Assembly: GCF_902167635.1 (NCBI RefSeq)
Contig: NZ_CABHMS010000006.1
Span: forward strand, 124,001 to 188,000
Length of the DNA stretch: 64,000 nt
Origin: Chitinophaga vietnamensis
GTDB taxonomy: Bacteria > Bacteroidota > Bacteroidia > Chitinophagales > Chitinophagaceae
Direction: 5' to 3'
The notes below the pieces were generated by a model. It made no database searches and was not told the DNA's origin. It worked only from the letters and a program-made list of their open reading frames with translations. Shown in pieces: positions 5,681 to 39,383 of the stretch (its first letter is position 1; every line of letters starts with the position of its first letter). Both the position numbers and the translations under genes were made by a program.

Positions 5681-6314
5681 GGCCTAATGTGCCAACATCA
5701 AATAATACTTTATACAACAGCACGAGGCCGAAGATCACCATGCTGGCGCCGGCAACGCGGTTGAGCCAGATCACATTGGTGAGGGTAAGTTTATGACGGA
5801 TCTTGTCTGATATAAATACTTTGAGAATATCTGCTGATAACACAAGACTGAGGCATACTCCATACATTACCAGGCGATGGCTCACCGGCGTAGCGCTGTA
5901 GGCAATACATACCGGTAACCAGAAGATCACCACACCCGGGTTGAGGGTGTTCATCAGAAAGCCCGCCAGCCATATCTTCAGATAGTCGTGCGTACGGAAC
6001 ATTTCCGGCTTCTCTTCTCCCGTACTGATCTTCACTTTCTTGAAGAACAATCCATAAATCCCCATACAGATCAGCAGGATACCGCCCCCGATACCGATAG
6101 AACGGTTATAACCTTCCAGGCCACTGATGAAAGAGGTAGACAGATTACCGACAGATACAAAGAATATATCGCTCAAAGACACACCCAGCGCGAAACTGAT
6201 GCCTGCCTTGAAACCATTGTTGATGCTGTATTTGATAATGGCAAATATTACCGGTCCTACCGATAACGACAGAAATAATCCCAATCCGAGTCCTGCTACA
6301 ATTGCTGCTATCAT
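5676..6314 (-). CDS. LysE/RhtB-family amino-acid exporter
   Basis: Inner-membrane efflux protein of 212 residues with the six-helix LysE pattern: N-terminal helix with GLFLSLSVGPV, a GISFALGVSLSD segment, and a paired helix with NTLNPGVVIFW. The start ATG overlaps the stop of the upstream GH3-type gene in a 4-base ATGA (6311-6314), so translation is probably coupled. The family exports amino acids or small related molecules. The coupling to an acyl/amino-acid adenylase hints that it exports that enzyme's product or substrate, which is inference. Confidence 0.9.
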   Translation of the reverse strand: MIAAIVAGLGLGLFLSLSVGPVIFAIIKYSINNGFKAGISFALGVSLSDIFFVSVGNLSTSFISGLEGYNRSIGIGGGILLICMGIYGLFFKKVKISTGEEKPEMFRTHDYLKIWLAGFLMNTLNPGVVIFWLPVCIAYSATPVSHRLVMYGVCLSLVLSADILKVFISDKIRHKLTLTNVIWLNRVAGASMVIFGLVLLYKVLFDVGTLGH

Positions 6315-7855
6315 GCTTGCTGCTTCACTGTTTTTCCTGCGAGGAATTTTTCCCAGTCTTTCAGCTTGTCGCCTTTCATTACCCTGGGGAACTTGTTCAT
6401 GGCGCCTTCCTTGCCTTTGTAGCGGAGGTAGTCGATGAACACATCGTTAGGCAATATCTCTACAAACACATCTTTGAGGGCAGATGTTCGTTCTACGGCG
6501 TAATCGTCGTTTACCTCTGCGAGGGTTTGATCGATGATCTCGCGCACTTTGGCAGCATCCACATTCACATTATCGGTACCGATATACCAGCGGTGTGCAA
6601 AGAGGTTCTGGTACGGGAAACCCGCTACCGTGAACTCTTTCACGGTGATACCTAGTTTTTTCTGCACAGTATCGATGGCTTTGTTCATGTTATCGATGCT
6701 CATGTGCTCTCCGCAGAGGCTGAGGAACTGTTTGGTGCGGCCAACGATCGTGATTTCATGTTCTTTTACAGAAGTGAATTTCACAACGTCGCCGATGAGG
6801 TAACGCCAGGCGCCGGCGCAGGTGGAGAGCATCACCGCATATTCCACATCTTCCACCACTTCGTTGATCATGTAAGATTTAGGGTTGGGTTTCACTTCGC
6901 CATCGGCATCGAAGTTCTCTTCGTTGAAGGGAATAAATTCGAAGAAGATGCCGGCGTTGAGTACCAGTTTAATACCTTTTGTGCCGGGGCGGGCCTGGAA
7001 TCCGAAGGAGCCTTCGGAAGCCATATACGTTTCGATGAAGGTGATCGGCTTGCCGAGCAGCTTCTGGAAGCTTTCGCGATAAGGCTCGAACGATACGCCG
7101 CCATGGATATAAATGGCCAGGTTAGGCCATATCTCGTGAATATTTTTTACGCCGTGGTATTTGATGATCTCTTCCAGCACGATCTGCACCCAGGCAGGTA
7201 CGCCGCATACGGTGCCCACGTCCCATTGCCGGGCCTTACGTACAATCAGCTTGATACGCTGTTCCCAATTGGGTTTGCGGGATATCTTGCCACCAGGCTT
7301 GTAGAAACGGCGGAACCATTTCGGGATATTCTTCGCCTGGATACCGCTCATATCGCCTTCGTAGTAGTCGCCTTTCTCGAAAAGCGAAGTGGTACCGCCC
7401 AGCATGAGGATACCTTTTTCAAAAGAGCGGGGCGGCACGTTGAAGTTAGCCATGGAATAGAGCTGCTTCACGCCCACTTTCTTCACTGTTTTGAGCATAT
7501 CGCGGGTAACAGGGATATGCTTGCTCGCCGACTCCGAGGTACCGGAGCTCAAGGCAAAATATTTGATCTTCTCCGGCCAACTCACGTTAGCTTCCCCTTC
7601 CAGGCAGCGGTACCACCACTCTTTGTGCATCTTGGTATAATTATGCACCGGTACTTTCTCACGATACTGACTGATAAAGTTGGCGCTATCCAACATCTCC
7701 TGGAACTGGTAATGGCGCCCGAATTCAGTGTTCTTGGCTTTCTCCAGCAAACGGTGTAACACCTGAAGCTGGTACTGGCGCGGTGTTCCTAACTTAAATG
7801 TGAACTTTTTCCTGATCCGTAACGACCGGGAAATAAGATTACCTATTATGGCCAT
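6311..7855 (-). CDS. GH3-family acyl-adenylating enzyme
   Basis: Member of the GH3 auxin-responsive promoter family (ANL superfamily-related), 514 residues from the ATG at 7855. An upstream TTG in frame at 7876 is possible but less likely. Visible family features are the serine/threonine-rich nucleotide motif (ALSSGTSES), the YMASEGSFGFQ segment and the RYLIGDVVKF segment that binds the adenylate. Plant homologues link amino acids to carboxylic acids such as jasmonate or indole-acetate; substrates of bacterial members are mostly unknown. It has no N-terminal transmembrane helix. It is followed with a 4-base overlap by the LysE exporter gene. Confidence 0.88.
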   Translation of the reverse strand: MAIIGNLISRSLRIRKKFTFKLGTPRQYQLQVLHRLLEKAKNTEFGRHYQFQEMLDSANFISQYREKVPVHNYTKMHKEWWYRCLEGEANVSWPEKIKYFALSSGTSESASKHIPVTRDMLKTVKKVGVKQLYSMANFNVPPRSFEKGILMLGGTTSLFEKGDYYEGDMSGIQAKNIPKWFRRFYKPGGKISRKPNWEQRIKLIVRKARQWDVGTVCGVPAWVQIVLEEIIKYHGVKNIHEIWPNLAIYIHGGVSFEPYRESFQKLLGKPITFIETYMASEGSFGFQARPGTKGIKLVLNAGIFFEFIPFNEENFDADGEVKPNPKSYMINEVVEDVEYAVMLSTCAGAWRYLIGDVVKFTSVKEHEITIVGRTKQFLSLCGEHMSIDNMNKAIDTVQKKLGITVKEFTVAGFPYQNLFAHRWYIGTDNVNVDAAKVREIIDQTLAEVNDDYAVERTSALKDVFVEILPNDVFIDYLRYKGKEGAMNKFPRVMKGDKLKDWEKFLAGKTVKQQA

Positions 7856-9938: not shown

Positions 9939-11618
9939 TTATTTCTCCACGGTTACCTTTATAGTAGGACTATTATGCGTGGGTGGAAGTTCACCCGCAA
10001 ATACGCAGAATTTCAACTGATAATCACCGGGCTTGTCGGGCATCACCACTTCCAGGCTGATCAAACGCCTTACCATGGCCCTTTCCAGCGTGAGTGTGGA
10101 TTTCACCGGCGGGAACATTTCCTCTTTCTTTGTAAACCCGTATCCCAGCACCGGCTCATTTTTCCAATCGATCGGAATAGGCTGGCGATAACCGTTCTGC
10201 GGTTGCAGGAACACGTTCACATGTTCGCCCCGGTGCGCCTTTATCTTCAGCATGGCGGGTTTCAGCTGTATCAATGAATAAGAATAGTATGCCGGCATCA
10301 TATAATAGTCCCAGTTGGCACGATGGGTTTTGATACTGTCGCTTACGGGAATGCCCGCCCCTGGCTCAAATACGATCATCGCCGGTTTTCTCCATAATTC
10401 CTTCTCCGTATCCCAGAAATTATATTGGCTTCTGCGCGCATACCTCGTATTGAGGCTATACGATAATCCGCCGGTATAGAACATGTACTTTGACGGCAAC
10501 TGGTAACTGTTCAAAAACACCACTGGCTTGCCTTCCGCACGGGCGGCGATCTTCGCGGTCCACTCTTTGTTATGGTGTATCTCCGGCCTGATCTCGAACT
10601 GCGGCATGAAATCCCATATCATATATACGCGCGTTACCAGCACCAGCAATAGCGATACCGGTAAGGTGTACAATAATATTTTCTGGGAGAATCCTTTTCT
10701 CACAATAGCCTGATGTGCGAGGATCACGGCAGGCGTAAACAGCATCACCGTCCAATTGGCCTCCACCCTGCCTTTGAAGGTACTGATCATAAAAAATACC
10801 AGTACCCCGATGAGATTTACTTTCAGCGCACGCTCAAAAGTATTCTGTATCGGGCAGCGGAAAGCATAATAGAGAATGAGCCATCCCAGCAGCGGACCAA
10901 AGAGCAACAGCTGCCCCGCTAGATAATCCAGCGTGTAGCTGATATCATAGGAAGACGCGTTACGGTCTACCAGATGGTATTGCAGGGAAGGGAAACCATG
11001 CGTGTACTGCCAGTAGATATGCGGCAGGAACAGGATGGTAGTGATGATGCAGGCAATATAGAACTTGAAAACCCGCAACAGGTTGATGTTAGAGACCACC
11101 GTGAAGAACACCAGCAGCACGCCATGATATTTACTGTAAAACATCAGGGCCATGGAGATGCCCAGCAGCAGCGTATTACGCCAGTTCTGTTCAGCAAGGA
11201 AAGTGCGGTATGCCCAGAAATATAATGCGGCAAAGAAGATCAGCGGCACATCCGGTACCGCCAGGATACCGCCTATCTGCATGGCGCCCATGGAGCCGAT
11301 GATCAGGTAGAAAAGTTTATTGTCCTTCGAAGCCAGCAGCTTCGCCGTTACCCAGAGGGTGAGCGTATTCACGATCACCACGAAGAACCTTACCCCCAGC
11401 TCGTTGTGGAAGATGCTGTAACCGGCTTTGATCATCAGTGCGATTATGGGAGGATGATCGAAGTAACCCCAGTCCATATGCCGGGAGTACACCCAATAAT
11501 ACGCCTCATCATCCCAGAGCTCTGAAAAGCAGGCCTGTAGAAGGCCCAGCACCAGCCAGCCGAGCAGAAAAAGGTTTTTGTACTGATTTTTTATAAAGAA
11601 GCGCTTTATAGCATCCAT
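9939..11618 (-). CDS. GT39/ArnT-like membrane glycosyltransferase
   Basis: Polytopic membrane glycosyltransferase of the PMT_2/ArnT type, 559 residues. The first periplasmic loop carries the acidic LWDDEAYYW motif (Asp36, Asp37) and the DHPP motif typical of polyprenyl-phosphate-sugar-dependent transferases. About ten to twelve hydrophobic helices fill residues 15-350, followed by a soluble C-terminal domain of about 200 residues. It likely transfers a sugar from an undecaprenyl-phosphate donor to a lipid or protein in the periplasm; acceptor unknown. It is the last gene of the minus-strand run that starts at pcrA, 39 bases after nagA. Confidence 0.87.
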   Translation of the reverse strand: MDAIKRFFIKNQYKNLFLLGWLVLGLLQACFSELWDDEAYYWVYSRHMDWGYFDHPPIIALMIKAGYSIFHNELGVRFFVVIVNTLTLWVTAKLLASKDNKLFYLIIGSMGAMQIGGILAVPDVPLIFFAALYFWAYRTFLAEQNWRNTLLLGISMALMFYSKYHGVLLVFFTVVSNINLLRVFKFYIACIITTILFLPHIYWQYTHGFPSLQYHLVDRNASSYDISYTLDYLAGQLLLFGPLLGWLILYYAFRCPIQNTFERALKVNLIGVLVFFMISTFKGRVEANWTVMLFTPAVILAHQAIVRKGFSQKILLYTLPVSLLLVLVTRVYMIWDFMPQFEIRPEIHHNKEWTAKIAARAEGKPVVFLNSYQLPSKYMFYTGGLSYSLNTRYARRSQYNFWDTEKELWRKPAMIVFEPGAGIPVSDSIKTHRANWDYYMMPAYYSYSLIQLKPAMLKIKAHRGEHVNVFLQPQNGYRQPIPIDWKNEPVLGYGFTKKEEMFPPVKSTLTLERAMVRRLISLEVVMPDKPGDYQLKFCVFAGELPPTHNSPTIKVTVEK

Positions 11619-28320: not shown

Positions 28321-28788
28321 TTATTCCACCACGTTAATGGTACGATAGAAACTTTCTTCGAGAGAAATAAGGGTCTCGGTTCTTTCTATGCCTTTGATCT
28401 TTTGCAGTTCATCATGCAGGATGCGGCGTAATTGCGTGATATCTTTACAGATGATTTCCGCAAACATGCTATAGCTGCCGGTGGTGTAGTTGAGGCGTAC
28501 CATTTCAGGGATCTTTCTCAGTTCTTTGGCCACAGTGTCGTACATGGAACTTTTTTCAAGATAGATACCGATAAAGGCGATCACATCGTAGCCGATCATT
28601 TTTAAATCTACATGTAATTTAGTACCTTTAACTATACCTAGTTCTTGCAATTTCTTCATTCTCACGTGGATAGTGCCCCCGGAAACGAACAGTTTCTTTC
28701 CCAGGTCTGCATAAGATATCTCAGCGTTGTTCATCATCTCGCTGATGATCTGCAGGTCGAGTTTGTCAATATTCAAATTGTGGCTCAT
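28321..28788 (-). CDS. Lrp/AsnC-family transcriptional regulator
   Basis: Feast/famine regulator of 155 residues. N-terminal winged helix-turn-helix (LDLQIISEMM...SYADLGKKLFVSGGTIHVRMKKL) and C-terminal RAM domain (VIAFIGIYLEK, GSYSMFAEIICKD). Adjacent and upstream of kynA on the same strand, which suggests it senses an amino acid, possibly tryptophan, and controls kynA; ligand is inferred. Divergent from the tRNA-like gene. Confidence 0.92.
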   Translation of the reverse strand: MSHNLNIDKLDLQIISEMMNNAEISYADLGKKLFVSGGTIHVRMKKLQELGIVKGTKLHVDLKMIGYDVIAFIGIYLEKSSMYDTVAKELRKIPEMVRLNYTTGSYSMFAEIICKDITQLRRILHDELQKIKGIERTETLISLEESFYRTINVVE

Positions 28789-28871: not shown

Positions 28872-28903
28872 TTTGCAAGAAATTCCCCATCTCTTTAGAT
28901 TTG
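28872..28903 (+). promoter_or_regulatory. Full Bacteroidota promoter of the tRNA-like gene
   Basis: TTTG (28872-28875), 20-base spacer, TAGATTTG (28896-28903): an exact match to the -33/-7 consensus with ideal spacing. The predicted start is near 28910, about 55 bases before the mature tRNA-like 5' end. Confidence 0.75.
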
Positions 28904-28964: not shown

Positions 28965-29107
28965 TGTGGGGTGATGAAATTGGCAGACATGCCCTCTTGT
29001 CTCGGGGGTGGGGAGTCCAGGATAAACGTAACATAATTGGGTTGACCACTAATCTTACTTGTGTTATGGCTAACTGCCCCGTGGAGGTTCGAATCCTCCT
29101 CCTACAG
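28965..29107 (+). tRNA. Unusual class II tRNA-like RNA, anticodon GUC
   Basis: A cloverleaf can be drawn without forcing. The acceptor arms 28965-28971 and 29100-29106 pair over 7 bp with two G-T pairs, with G29107 as discriminator. The D arm (28974-28990) has a leucine-type AAATTGGCAGA loop. The anticodon stem is 28992-28996/29004-29008 with loop TTGTCTC, so the anticodon is GUC (28999-29001), with U33 and C38. The T arm is GGAGG-TTCGAAT-CCTCC (29083-29099). Between anticodon and T stems is a 74-base variable region containing a 10-bp helix (29027-29036 with 29059-29068). No encoded CCA. Leucine-type body with aspartate-type identity bases; a degenerate tRNA-Leu pseudogene is the alternative. 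Confidence 0.6.
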
Positions 29108-29123
29108 CTGAATTGGTTTAAAG

Positions 29124-29155
29124 AGTCCGCGGGCATTGCTTCGCGGGCTTTTTTG
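29124..29155 (+). terminator. Terminator of the tRNA-like gene
   Basis: AGTCCGCG (29124-29131) pairs with CGCGGGCT (29142-29149) around a 10-base loop and is followed by T5GCT4. It sits 17 bases after the tRNA-like 3' end and before the trmB promoter. Confidence 0.85.
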
Positions 29156-29189
29156 CTTTTATCCCCTTTCCAATGTTCCGCTTTCGGCT

Positions 29190-29197
29190 TACTTTTG
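29190..29197 (+). promoter_or_regulatory. -7 element of trmB (TACTTTTG)
   Basis: Exact TAnnTTTG match ending five bases before the trmB ATG, which would give a leaderless or nearly leaderless mRNA. No clear -33 element. Confidence 0.45.
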
Positions 29198-29202
29198 CCG
29201 GA

Positions 29203-29907
29203 ATGGGACAGAAAAAATTACAACGCTTTGCAGAAATAGAGACCTTCCCCAACGTACTCATCTACCCGGAAGGCATGCAGGGAAAATGGCACGAACACTT
29301 TCAAAACAATCATCCCCTCACCCTGGAACTGGCCTGTGGTAAAGGAGATTACACCCTGGGCCTGGCACGTATGTTCAGCAACAGGAACATCATCGGTGTG
29401 GACCTTAAAGGCAACCGCATCTGGAGAGGCGCCAAAACCGCGCTGGATGAAAAGCTGTCTAACGCCGCCTTCCTCCGCACACAAATAGATAAACTCAATA
29501 ACTATTTCGCCCCCGGCGAAATAGAAGAGATATGGATCACCTTCCCCGATCCCTTCCTGCGGCAGTCGAAAGCCAAGAAAAGACTCACCCATCCGAAGTT
29601 CCTACAGCTGTATCAGCCGCTGCTGGCCCCAGGCGCTACCATCAACCTGAAAACGGATTCGGCAGAGCTCTACCGCTTTACACAGGAAGTGATCGCCGCA
29701 GCAGGCTGCACCACCATTGAAGACATAGCTGACGTATACGCTATGCCGGAAGTGCCCGCCCTCCTGCGTATCCAAACCTATTATGAAGGCATGCACCTGA
29801 AAGATGGCCGCACCATCCGCTACCTGAAATTCAGGTTACCCGAAGCGCCGATCGATTGGCGCAGCATTAAACTTCCTTCCGATGAAGCCCTTAGTGGAGA
29901 AGATTGA
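29203..29907 (+). CDS. trmB: tRNA (guanine-N7-)-methyltransferase
   Basis: SAM-dependent enzyme forming m7G46 in the tRNA variable loop; 234 residues from the ATG at 29203, whose MGQKKLQRFAE start matches Bacteroidota TrmB proteins better than the upstream ATG at 29173. SAM motif LELACGKGDYTLGLA, then VDLKGNRIW, and the TFPDPF catalytic motif are visible. Directly downstream of the tRNA-like gene but with its own promoter element. Confidence 0.94.
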   Translation: MGQKKLQRFAEIETFPNVLIYPEGMQGKWHEHFQNNHPLTLELACGKGDYTLGLARMFSNRNIIGVDLKGNRIWRGAKTALDEKLSNAAFLRTQIDKLNNYFAPGEIEEIWITFPDPFLRQSKAKKRLTHPKFLQLYQPLLAPGATINLKTDSAELYRFTQEVIAAAGCTTIEDIADVYAMPEVPALLRIQTYYEGMHLKDGRTIRYLKFRLPEAPIDWRSIKLPSDEALSGED

Positions 29908-37943: not shown

Positions 37944-39383
37944 ATGAGCCAAAGGACGAAAGTCAAACAGATCCTGGCAGACGACAGGACGAACTACGAA
38001 GTCACAGTAAAGGGTTGGGTGCGGTCTTTCCGCAATAACCAGTTTATCGCTTTGAACGACGGCTCTACCAATAATAATCTGCAAATCGTTATTAATACAG
38101 ATAATATAGATGCTGCGCTGATCAAGCGCATCACCACCGGCGCCTCTATCAGTGCTACCGGAGAGGTGATCGCCTCTCTCGGCAAAGGCCAGCGCGTGGA
38201 GCTGAAAGCCTCCACCATCGGGATCCTCGGCGATTGCGACCCTGAAAAATATCCCCTGCAGCTGAAGAACAAGCCCAGCCTGGAATACCTCCGCGAAATC
38301 GCGCACCTGCGCTTCCGGACCAATACTTTCGGGGCTATCTTTCGTATTCGCCATACGCTCGCATTTGCTGTGCACAAGTTTTTCAACGAACGCGGATTTG
38401 TATATCTCCATACGCCGATCATCACCGCCTCCGATGCAGAAGGCGCCGGCGAGATGTTCCGGGTAACCACACTCGATGTGAACAAGCCGCCACGCACAGC
38501 ATCCGGCGAAGTAGACTTTAAAGAAGATTTCTTCGGCCGCTCCACCAACCTCACCGTTTCCGGCCAGCTGGAAGGTGAGCTGGGCGCTATGGCCTTCGGC
38601 GATATCTACACCTTCGGGCCTACTTTCCGTGCGGAGAACTCCAACACAGCCCGCCACCTCGCTGAATTCTGGATGATAGAACCCGAAATGGCCTTCTATG
38701 AACTGGAAGATAACATGAACCTCGCCGAAGCCTTCATCAAATCCGTAATCGGTTACGTACTGGAACATAACCGCGAAGACCTCGATTTCCTCGCGGCACG
38801 CCTCGTAGAAGAAGAAAAACAAAAGCCGCAGCAGGAACGCAGCGAAATGGGCCTCATCGAAAAGCTCGAATTCGTGCTCAACAACGAGTTTATGCGACTC
38901 ACCTACACGGAAGCGATCGAGATACTGAAAGACAGTAAACCTAACAAAAATAAAAAGTTCCAATACCTCATCGAAGGCTGGGGCGCCGACCTGCAAAGCG
39001 AGCATGAACGCTATCTTGTAGAGAAACATTTCAAAAAACCGGTGATCCTCACCGATTATCCGAAAGAGATCAAATCTTTCTACATGAAGCTCAATGCAGA
39101 CGGCAAAACCGTACGTGCGATGGATATCCTCTTCCCGGGCATCGGTGAGATGGTGGGCGGTTCGCAACGTGAAGAAGATTACGACACACTGGTAGCGCGC
39201 ATGAAAGAGATGCACGTACCCGTGGAAGAACTGAGCTGGTTCCTCGATACCCGCCGCTTTGGTACGGCGCCGCATTCCGGCTTCGGGCTTGGCTTTGAGC
39301 GTTTGATCCTGTTTGTGACCGGCATGACCAACATCCGCGACGTGATCCCGTTCCCGAGAACACCCAAGAGCGCCGAGTTTTAA
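37944..39383 (+). CDS. asnS: Asparaginyl-tRNA synthetase
   Basis: Class IIb synthetase charging tRNA-Asn, 479 residues. N-terminal OB-fold anticodon-binding domain ([20 protein letters not shown]). Catalytic motifs: motif 2 around [26 protein letters not shown] and motif 3 [15 protein letters not shown]. The Ser/Asn-type residues distinguish it from AspRS. Its own promoter and terminator bracket it. Confidence 0.96.

Follow-up and report, generated by a model that had tools for sequence, protein, structure and literature searches.

The acceptor and T stems of tRNA-Sec and of allo-tRNAs form 12- or 13-bp composites of the classes 8/4, 9/3 and 8/5. Some allo-tRNAs carry a GUC anticodon, as described in the accessible part of PMC7609411. 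In the accessible part of PMC9976931, the determinants of bacterial AspRS are given as G73, G10, G34, U35, C36 and C38, and G73 is listed as an antideterminant against LeuRS. We analyzed a window of 64,000 nt from Chitinophaga vietnamensis (contig NZ_CABHMS010000006.1, positions 124,001 to 188,000) that appears to encode a stand-alone non-coding RNA joining a Leu-like class II body to a tRNA-Asp-like anticodon loop and discriminator and to a large, structured variable arm.

With tRNA-Leu this RNA family shares the sequence of the D arm and its loop, the 7/5 acceptor and T stems and an extended variable arm, and tRNA-Leu genes are the runners-up to the element under our covariance model in this genome; the family differs in having G73 in place of A73, a GUC loop, a variable region of 39-131 nt in cellular copies, and conserved internal-loop motifs. 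G34, U35, C36, C38, G73 and G2-C71 are those of tRNA-Asp, and the loop CUGUCUC resembles CUGUCAC; unlike tRNA-Asp, the family has a class II body, mostly no G10, a U1-A72 pair, no purine at position 37 and a huge arm. The long variable arm, G73 and a presumed non-standard use recall tRNA-Sec and the allo-tRNAs, whereas the acceptor and T stems are canonical (7 and 5 bp, not a 12- or 13-bp composite of the 8/5, 8/4 or 9/3 type), GUC is nearly fixed and the arm is far larger. Like tmRNA, the element has tRNA-like ends, is a stand-alone gene and occurs on some of the same viral contigs, but it has a complete anticodon arm and is not matched by the tmRNA model RF00023. GOLLD RNA (RF02032) is likewise a large, ornate structured RNA found beside phage tRNAs, although GOLLD measures about 400 nt and no match exists between the two. 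By the criteria tested, the element does not qualify as an ordinary tRNA-Asp, tRNA-Leu, allo-tRNA or tmRNA.

Structure of the RNA and of its family

The window RNA is tRNA-shaped, 144 nt long and located at 28965-29108 on the plus strand. Its parts are the following.

28965-28971, plus strand: acceptor stem, 5' strand (U1 G2 U3 G4 G5 G6 G7), pairing with 29100-29106
28974-28990, plus strand: D arm, with a 3-bp stem (AUG/CAU) and the Leu-type loop AAAUUGGCAGA
28992-29008, plus strand: anticodon arm, CCCUC-UUGUCUC-GGGGG, with a 5-bp stem
28997-29003, plus strand: anticodon loop UUGUCUC, with G34 U35 C36 at 28999-29001, U37 at 29002 and C38 at 29003
29009-29082, plus strand: giant variable region, 74 nt
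29010-29013 with 29077-29080, plus strand: stem A, 4 bp, with a 4-nt 5' bulge at 29014-29017
29018-29020 (CAG) with 29074-29076 (CUG), plus strand: stem B
29021-29026 (GAUAAA) and 29069-29073 (GCUAA), plus strand: conserved internal loop flanked by stem B
29027-29036 with 29059-29068, plus strand: distal stem C, 10 bp, whose apical loop carries GGGUUGACCAC
29083-29099, plus strand: T arm, GGAGG-UUCGAAU-CCUCC, 5 bp
29100-29108, plus strand: acceptor stem, 3' strand, with G73 (29107) and an encoded C74 (29108)

The full cloverleaf of the original prediction, with its Leu-type D arm and canonical T arm, is thus present base for base. The GUC anticodon, C38 and G73 are read directly from the sequence, as are the variable region of about 74 nt with its 10-bp helix and the 7-bp acceptor with its U1-A72 and two G-U pairs. 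The span originally given (28965-29107, 143 nt) holds for the structure, but the 3' end is better set one base further on, at C74, since the tRNA-Asp genes of the same genome likewise encode G73-C74. The canonical features of a class II tRNA cloverleaf (7-bp acceptor, D arm, anticodon arm of 5 bp and 7 nt, 5-bp T arm, T loop) are all found.

Each of the 37 base pairs in the annotated structure is of a standard type. Single-sequence folding does not favor the cloverleaf (-37.6 kcal/mol, against a minimum of -49.0 kcal/mol), and the fold z-score of -1.74 is modest in that 9 of 200 shuffled sequences fold equally well or better; the case for the cloverleaf therefore rests on comparison. In an alignment of 28 homologues, the acceptor, D, anticodon, proximal variable and T helices have 100% of their cells paired and the distal variable helix 80.7%, and 19 of 34 pairs have changed on both sides. 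Not one of 500 shuffles reached any of five pairing measures, and pairing fell to 47-59% when the partners were displaced by 1-3 columns. The original prediction had staked itself on two points, stems conserved in relatives and a locus free of any tRNA-Leu annotation by covariance models; the stems are conserved with compensatory changes, and the covariance-model check finds no tRNA-Leu there. Judged by sequence comparison, the fold is established and the element is a genuine member of a widespread family of tRNA-like RNAs.

A covariance model built from this alignment (R1) scored the window copy at 164.5 bits and copies at two named Chitinophaga loci at 165.2 (L236) and 165.0 bits (L158). The next-best matches in the same genome were tRNA-Leu(gag) at 50.2, tRNA-Leu(tag) at 48.0, tRNA-Leu(caa) at 44.1 and tRNA-Ser(gct) at 36.8 bits. 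The earlier description of a leucine-type body agrees with these tRNA-Leu scores and with the D arm, to which we limit it. Beside tRNA-Ile(tat) of the same genome, R1 also picked up a 141-nt stretch with a T-arm-like end (L042:1334-1474, minus strand; 21.9 bits, E 0.009), which is possibly another tRNA-like gene or a remnant of one.

The variable arm has a covarying architecture of its own. Across 258 distinct copies, all selected for GUC and C38, the four positions of stem A pair in 246, 252, 244 and 246; its two middle pairs covary clearly above shuffling, and its two outer pairs hardly vary. One of the two arm motifs was missing from 37 of these copies; in the 221 others the pairs of stem B form in 183, 215 and 217 (at most 131, 156 and 168 after shuffling), the 5' bulge measures 4 nt in 187, and the internal loop reads GAUAAA in 141 and GCUAA in 153. 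The distal part ranges from almost nothing, in viral copies of 97 nt (L305, L322, L353), to long hairpins. An apical motif GGG(U/A)NGACCAY belongs to part of the family only (55/108, 36/101 and 44/55 copies in three sets).

ARAGORN called no tRNA and no tmRNA in the whole window, and Rfam 15 placed no family on the window element at gathering score. At 14 further carrier loci no gathering match lay over the element, while the ordinary tRNAs there were detected. In a permissive Rfam scan the tRNA model (RF00005) aligned to part of the T arm only (18 model positions, 13.6 bits); matches to His_leader (25.3 bits), ar14 (17.6 bits) and others, below gathering, were considered chance. Among the matches listed, three ARAGORN calls overlapped the element in viral loci and none did so in 79 cellular loci. 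The RNA family was not found in Rfam 15 or in the open-access literature searched, and the accessible parts of PMC7609411, PMC9976931, PMC8450103 and PMC2864571 contain no description of it; as far as these sources show, this widespread tRNA-like family has apparently gone undescribed. Phage and plasmid records held no annotated relatives: one unannotated uncultured phage of 636 kb (LR756504) matched, and the other records gave short partial matches, several of them on annotated tRNAs, or nothing.

Occurrence and gene context in hosts and viral contigs

At the DNA level, the element turned up in 43 of 59 relatives searched: all 36 genomes of the same genus, among them its own, plus seven belonging to other families of the order. 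At a cut-off of E<=1e-18, R1 detects it in 238 of 396 genomes of an order sample (225 of 350 among the good ones), with up to 5 copies per genome; a looser count of 334/396 (E<=0.001) was set aside and repeated at 1e-18, the weaker matches being taken as ordinary tRNA-Leu. In a class sample 67 of 345 genomes, other families included, pass 1e-14, of which six show nothing more than a match of 84-87 nt and 60.6-61.9 bits, probably to tRNA-Leu. A phylum sample gave 32 of 296 at 1e-15, including two genomes of a family (f131) in another class of the phylum, with three neighboring copies each. A motif scan of a named GTDB collection matched at least 120 stretches; those listed include Chitinophaga, Niabella, Niastella, Terrimonas, Ferruginibacter, Dyadobacter, Spirosoma, Cyclobacterium, Algoriphagus, Echinicola, Belliella, Fulvivirga, Marivirga and Saprospiraceae, as well as one Ignavibacteriales MAG that may be a binning error. 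R1 confirmed the element in 80/80 GTDB loci tested among the matches listed. Tandem arrays of three to five copies occur (L127, L128, L113, L234, L433), some of their copies nearly identical and some differing in the distal arms.

The window element is flanked as follows.

28321-28788, minus strand: divergent gene for an Lrp/AsnC-family regulator (PF01037, E 1e-16; PF13404)
28872-28903, plus strand: TTTG-N20-TAGATTTG, a match to the promoter pattern TTTG-N18-21-TAnnTTTG, its box ending about 60 nt before the RNA 5' end
29120-29153, plus strand: intrinsic-terminator-like hairpin with a T run
29173-29907, plus strand: gene for a PF02390 methyltransferase, directly downstream

We take TTTG-N18-21-TAnnTTTG to be the Bacteroidota-type promoter consensus. 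A scan for sigma-70 type promoters upstream of the window element found none. A strict TTTG-type promoter is present in 74 of 206 cellular upstream regions, against a control mean of 0.62 in 100 shuffles by blocks of two bases. The single terminator-like hairpin of the window (0.4 expected in shuffles) is weak alone, but such a structure comes after 103 of the 207 cellular copies (shuffled controls: 1.3). In both comparisons related genomes are not independent. At the level of sequence, promoter- and terminator-like flanks are thus frequent among the cellular copies; of the viral copies, 0/57 have a TTTG-type promoter and 2/56 a terminator.

The most widely shared neighbor seen is the Lrp/AsnC gene, which lies divergently within 700 nt at 49 of 74 GTDB loci with visible upstream sequence, at 13 of 26 further loci and at 0 of 60 visible viral loci, all among the matches listed. 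No Lrp/AsnC gene was found within 1500 nt of ordinary tRNAs at 30 loci of the same genome, and the cellular and viral neighborhoods yielded no partner gene shared by every lineage. The PF02390 methyltransferase, which we take to be TrmB-like, occurs at 7 of 36 loci. In ordinary tRNAs the variable loop is the site at which TrmB acts, and the link of this neighbor to the element may or may not be due to chance. A cis-regulatory leader of the methyltransferase gene was rejected on the 7 of 36 count and on the terminator-like hairpin between the two, and a coding sequence was rejected because copy length varies from 97 to 212 nt (258 distinct copies).

The same motif occurs in metagenomic viral contigs of IMG/VR, in at least 120 stretches, and R1 finds the element in 80/80 viral loci tested among the matches listed, one of them cut by a contig end. 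A terminase-large-subunit-like cluster lies downstream on the same strand at 36 of 79 viral loci, and portal-like genes at 25 of 79, among the matches listed; PhoH-like genes are near some copies. The terminase-like and portal-like names come from one representative each in PHROGs, and the gene just upstream of many viral copies received no PHROG name (one representative). The gene order is reminiscent of crAss-like phages.

Contexts were parsed for 69 of the 80 viral loci and 79 of the 80 GTDB loci among the matches listed. An ordinary tRNA or tmRNA is present in 32 of the 69 viral loci among these matches, the nearest one on the same strand in 32/32 and within 50 nt in 17; 16 of these 17 lie at 4-13 nt, with near-identical contigs kept in the count. 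A tmRNA stands beside the element at 4/69 viral loci, and no ordinary tRNA lies within 500 nt at any of 79 cellular loci, again among the matches listed. From these counts, viral copies sit with tRNAs and cellular copies are separate genes. At one viral locus (L328:4645-12247) the element, a tmRNA, 25 tRNA calls and a GOLLD RNA (268 bits) occur together.

Some viral contigs also carry a second kind of tRNA-like RNA, several per contig, with very similar acceptor and T arms and long, dissimilar middles that replace the anticodon and variable arms. It has UAGUCAGG at its 5' end and CCUGACUAC with A73 at its 3' end, and was seen at these positions.

L301:5129-5277, 6142-6263, 6477-6617 and 7682-7831, minus strand: second viral kind
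L310:4587-4707 and 9979-10113, minus strand: second viral kind
L314:4906-5050 and 5865-5974, plus strand: second viral kind

Anticodon loop and discriminator

Base identities were counted in 108 distinct copies, mostly better-scoring matches, that had been found by blastn or R1 with the loop not fixed. We removed sequences that contained N, measured less than 95 nt or had no GGYA D-loop motif, together with identical copies. The pattern-found viral and GTDB sets, which are biased for the loop, were left out, as was a viral set of 66 rows with 11 non-GUC loops that we took as another RNA kind.

The anticodon is GUC and position 38 is C in 108/108. G73, C74, U1-A72 and G2-C71 each occur in 107/108, the exception being one mis-ended row, and the 7-bp acceptor and 5-bp T stem likewise in 107/108; the commonest T loops are UUCGAAU (50) and UUCGACU (34). 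The anticodon loops are UUGUCUC (66), CUGUCUC (27), UCGUCUC (9), CGGUCUC (2), CUGUCGC (2), CCGUCCC (1) and UGGUCUC (1); among the 258 copies filtered for GUC and C38, CUGUCUC is the commonest, with 120. Position 37 is U or C in 106 of the 108, G in 2 and A in none, and position 33 is U in 95, C in 10 and G in 3. Ordinary tRNAs of the same genome have U33 in 54/54 and a purine at 37 in 54/54 (55 distinct ARAGORN calls less one with a two-base anticodon, which cover part of the 60 Rfam hits in the genome). All three ordinary tRNA-Asp genes have the loop CUGUCAC, from which CUGUCUC differs at position 37 only and the UUGUCUC of the window at positions 32 and 37; they begin with G1-C72, unlike the U1-A72 of the element.

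In a viral scan with the stem bases fixed and the loop open, GUC appeared in 80/80 loci read (81 stretches, 47 distinct contexts). Copies with UCGUCUA, lacking C38, made up 3 of the 47 contexts, and one viral copy had A37.

Departures are found among 23 diverged copies taken from low-scoring matches, one of 24 rows (23.5 bits) having been dropped as no clear member. GUC is kept in 20/23 and C38 in 21/23; G37 occurs in four, spread over three families (L435, L431, L426), and A33 in six. The three without GUC are L422 (CUCUCUC), L421 (CUAUCUC) and L425 (CGUUCUA), and the two without C38 are L428 (A38) and the degenerate L425. Two of the copies without GUC come from one genus (g216): L421:2338-2415, 78 nt long, has lost the big arm and has an AUC anticodon, and ARAGORN calls it tRNA-Asp(atc), while in L422:2071-2187 base 34 has changed to give CUC. 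The two loci of the family outside the class (L423, L424), with three neighboring copies each, have the loop CAGUCUC, whose A33 is the most extreme departure at this position that we saw.

The family thus keeps G73, G34, U35, C36 and C38 (107-108 of 108), that is, all listed AspRS determinants except G10: position 10 is A in 85 copies, U in 15 and G in 8. The A73 of tRNA-Leu is replaced by G73. Of the two bases expected for decoding, a purine at 37 is found in only 2/108, though U33 is found in 95. With bases facing the synthetase nearly frozen and base 37, less often base 33, off the norm, we infer an RNA read by AspRS and unread by the ribosome. The original suggestion of an RNA that may be charged with aspartate and used outside normal decoding draws strong comparative support from these near-invariant bases and from the loss of purine 37 and, in part, of U33; the missing G10 counts against it.

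Proposed aspartate charging and alternative readings

On our preferred reading, to which we give about an even chance, the RNA would be charged with aspartate by AspRS, would not be built for ordinary decoding, and would dock a partner on its variable arm. AspRS, LysRS and AsnRS are each present once in the genome, which holds no other PF00152 protein, so that the charging enzyme would be the housekeeping one; a dedicated AspRS paralogue was rejected on the same ground. A gene for asparagine-tRNA ligase follows the element at a distance of about 9 kb (window ~38295-39362, plus strand; G000:C6:162295-163362). The housekeeping aspartyl-tRNA synthetase would read G34-U35-C36/C38 and G73 and load the RNA with aspartate. 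Since position 37 is no longer held as a purine and some copies have also given up U33, the aspartylated RNA would not serve as a normal reader of Asp codons. Docking would take place on the variable arm, with its stem A, 4-nt bulge, stem B, GAUAAA/GCUAA loop and variable distal hairpins: a partner bound there would use, sense or sequester the aspartyl-RNA, and the process it serves would be tied to translation and, in a good many hosts, to amino-acid regulation by Lrp/AsnC. The RNA is tRNA-like in its fold and in its viral gene context, and probably in its aminoacylation. Counting against this reading are the absence of G10, a U1-A72 unlike tRNA-Asp, the three diverged copies without GUC, the diverged and viral copies that lack C38 or have a purine at 37, the retention of U33 in 95/108, a cloverleaf that is not the energy minimum, the absence of Lrp/AsnC from 25 of 74 GTDB loci, 13 of 26 further loci and 60 of 60 viral loci with visible upstream sequence among the matches listed, and the near-absence of promoter and terminator signals from viral copies.

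Several other readings have to be weighed against it. The RNA could be a specialized decoding isoacceptor, a second tRNA-Asp that is slow or reserved for a special context or stress and whose arm recruits a dedicated factor, as in tRNA-Sec/SelB. The near-invariant GUC, the frequent U33, the G37 of three families and the placing of viral copies beside tRNAs, in 4/69 loci a tmRNA among the matches listed, would fit such a role; pyrimidine 37 in 106/108, C33 or G33 in 13/108 and A33 in one lineage, none of them seen in the 54 ordinary tRNAs, do not, and an ordinary tRNA-Asp coexists with the element both in the host and in viral loci L314, L320, L328 and L346. We think this unlikely. The three ordinary tRNA-Asp genes of the host also led us to reject a replacement of tRNA-Asp. 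Similarly doubtful is an uncharged regulatory RNA on a tRNA scaffold, with the ends serving processing or stability and the loop or arm binding a target, perhaps as a decoy for AspRS or for a GU-type anticodon nuclease. Its appeal lies in the divergent Lrp/AsnC gene at 49 of 74 visible GTDB loci among the matches listed, the promoter and terminator signals, the plasticity of the arm and the presence in viral contigs. However, G73, G2-C71 and the encoded C74 are conserved along with the loop, which argues that the acceptor end matters, and no other exact copy of the apical motif GGGUUGACCACUAA exists in its own genome, where the two sites with one mismatch both lie in apparently coding stretches.

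Charging by SerRS has slightly gained, and our preferred reading slightly lost, on account of the GUC allo-tRNAs and the diverged copies, though we still regard serylation as improbable. It would make the element a class II RNA with G73, G2-C71 and R4-Y69 that is serylated whatever its anticodon. SerRS relies on a large variable arm, G73, G2-C71 and R4-Y69 (PMC9976931, accessible part), and R4-Y69 is found in 24 of 28 homologues; allo-tRNAs are serylated regardless of anticodon, GUC being among the commonest anticodons of the 8/4 type (PMC7609411, accessible part). The family mostly lacks C72 and C11-G24, however (U1-A72 in 107/108; C11-G24 in 3/28), its stems of 7 and 5 bp are neither 8/4 nor 9/3, and serylation leaves the near-invariance of GUC and C38 unexplained. 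A decaying tRNA-Leu gene or a chance cloverleaf, to which the odd acceptor pairs, the missing ARAGORN call, the weak single-sequence folding and the few diverged copies might point, is hardly credible given fully paired helices, compensatory changes and conservation across the order and beyond. The idea of a decaying tRNA, raised in the original prediction, thus falls for the family as a whole and could apply only to a few diverged copies such as L421 and L425.

Returning to aspartate charging, a bolder form of our preferred reading, which we advance tentatively and put somewhat short of an even chance, would make the element a new, non-decoding, aspartate-charged 'third-class' tRNA with a giant structured arm, conserved in Bacteroidota and their phages. 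Its charging state or aspartyl group would feed a dedicated process, be it tRNA-dependent modification, Lrp/AsnC amino-acid sensing or protection against an anticodon nuclease.

An RNA present in 238 of 396 genomes of the order, sometimes in arrays, and in many viral contigs has been passed over by ARAGORN in the window and by Rfam at the loci tested. Its family separates two readings of the anticodon: the bases that face the synthetase are nearly frozen, and base 37, which faces the ribosome, is changed. If the proposed charging is true, the family would represent a naturally occurring tRNA scaffold employed outside normal decoding, and it would offer a handle on an aspartyl-tRNA-dependent process common to hosts and their phages.
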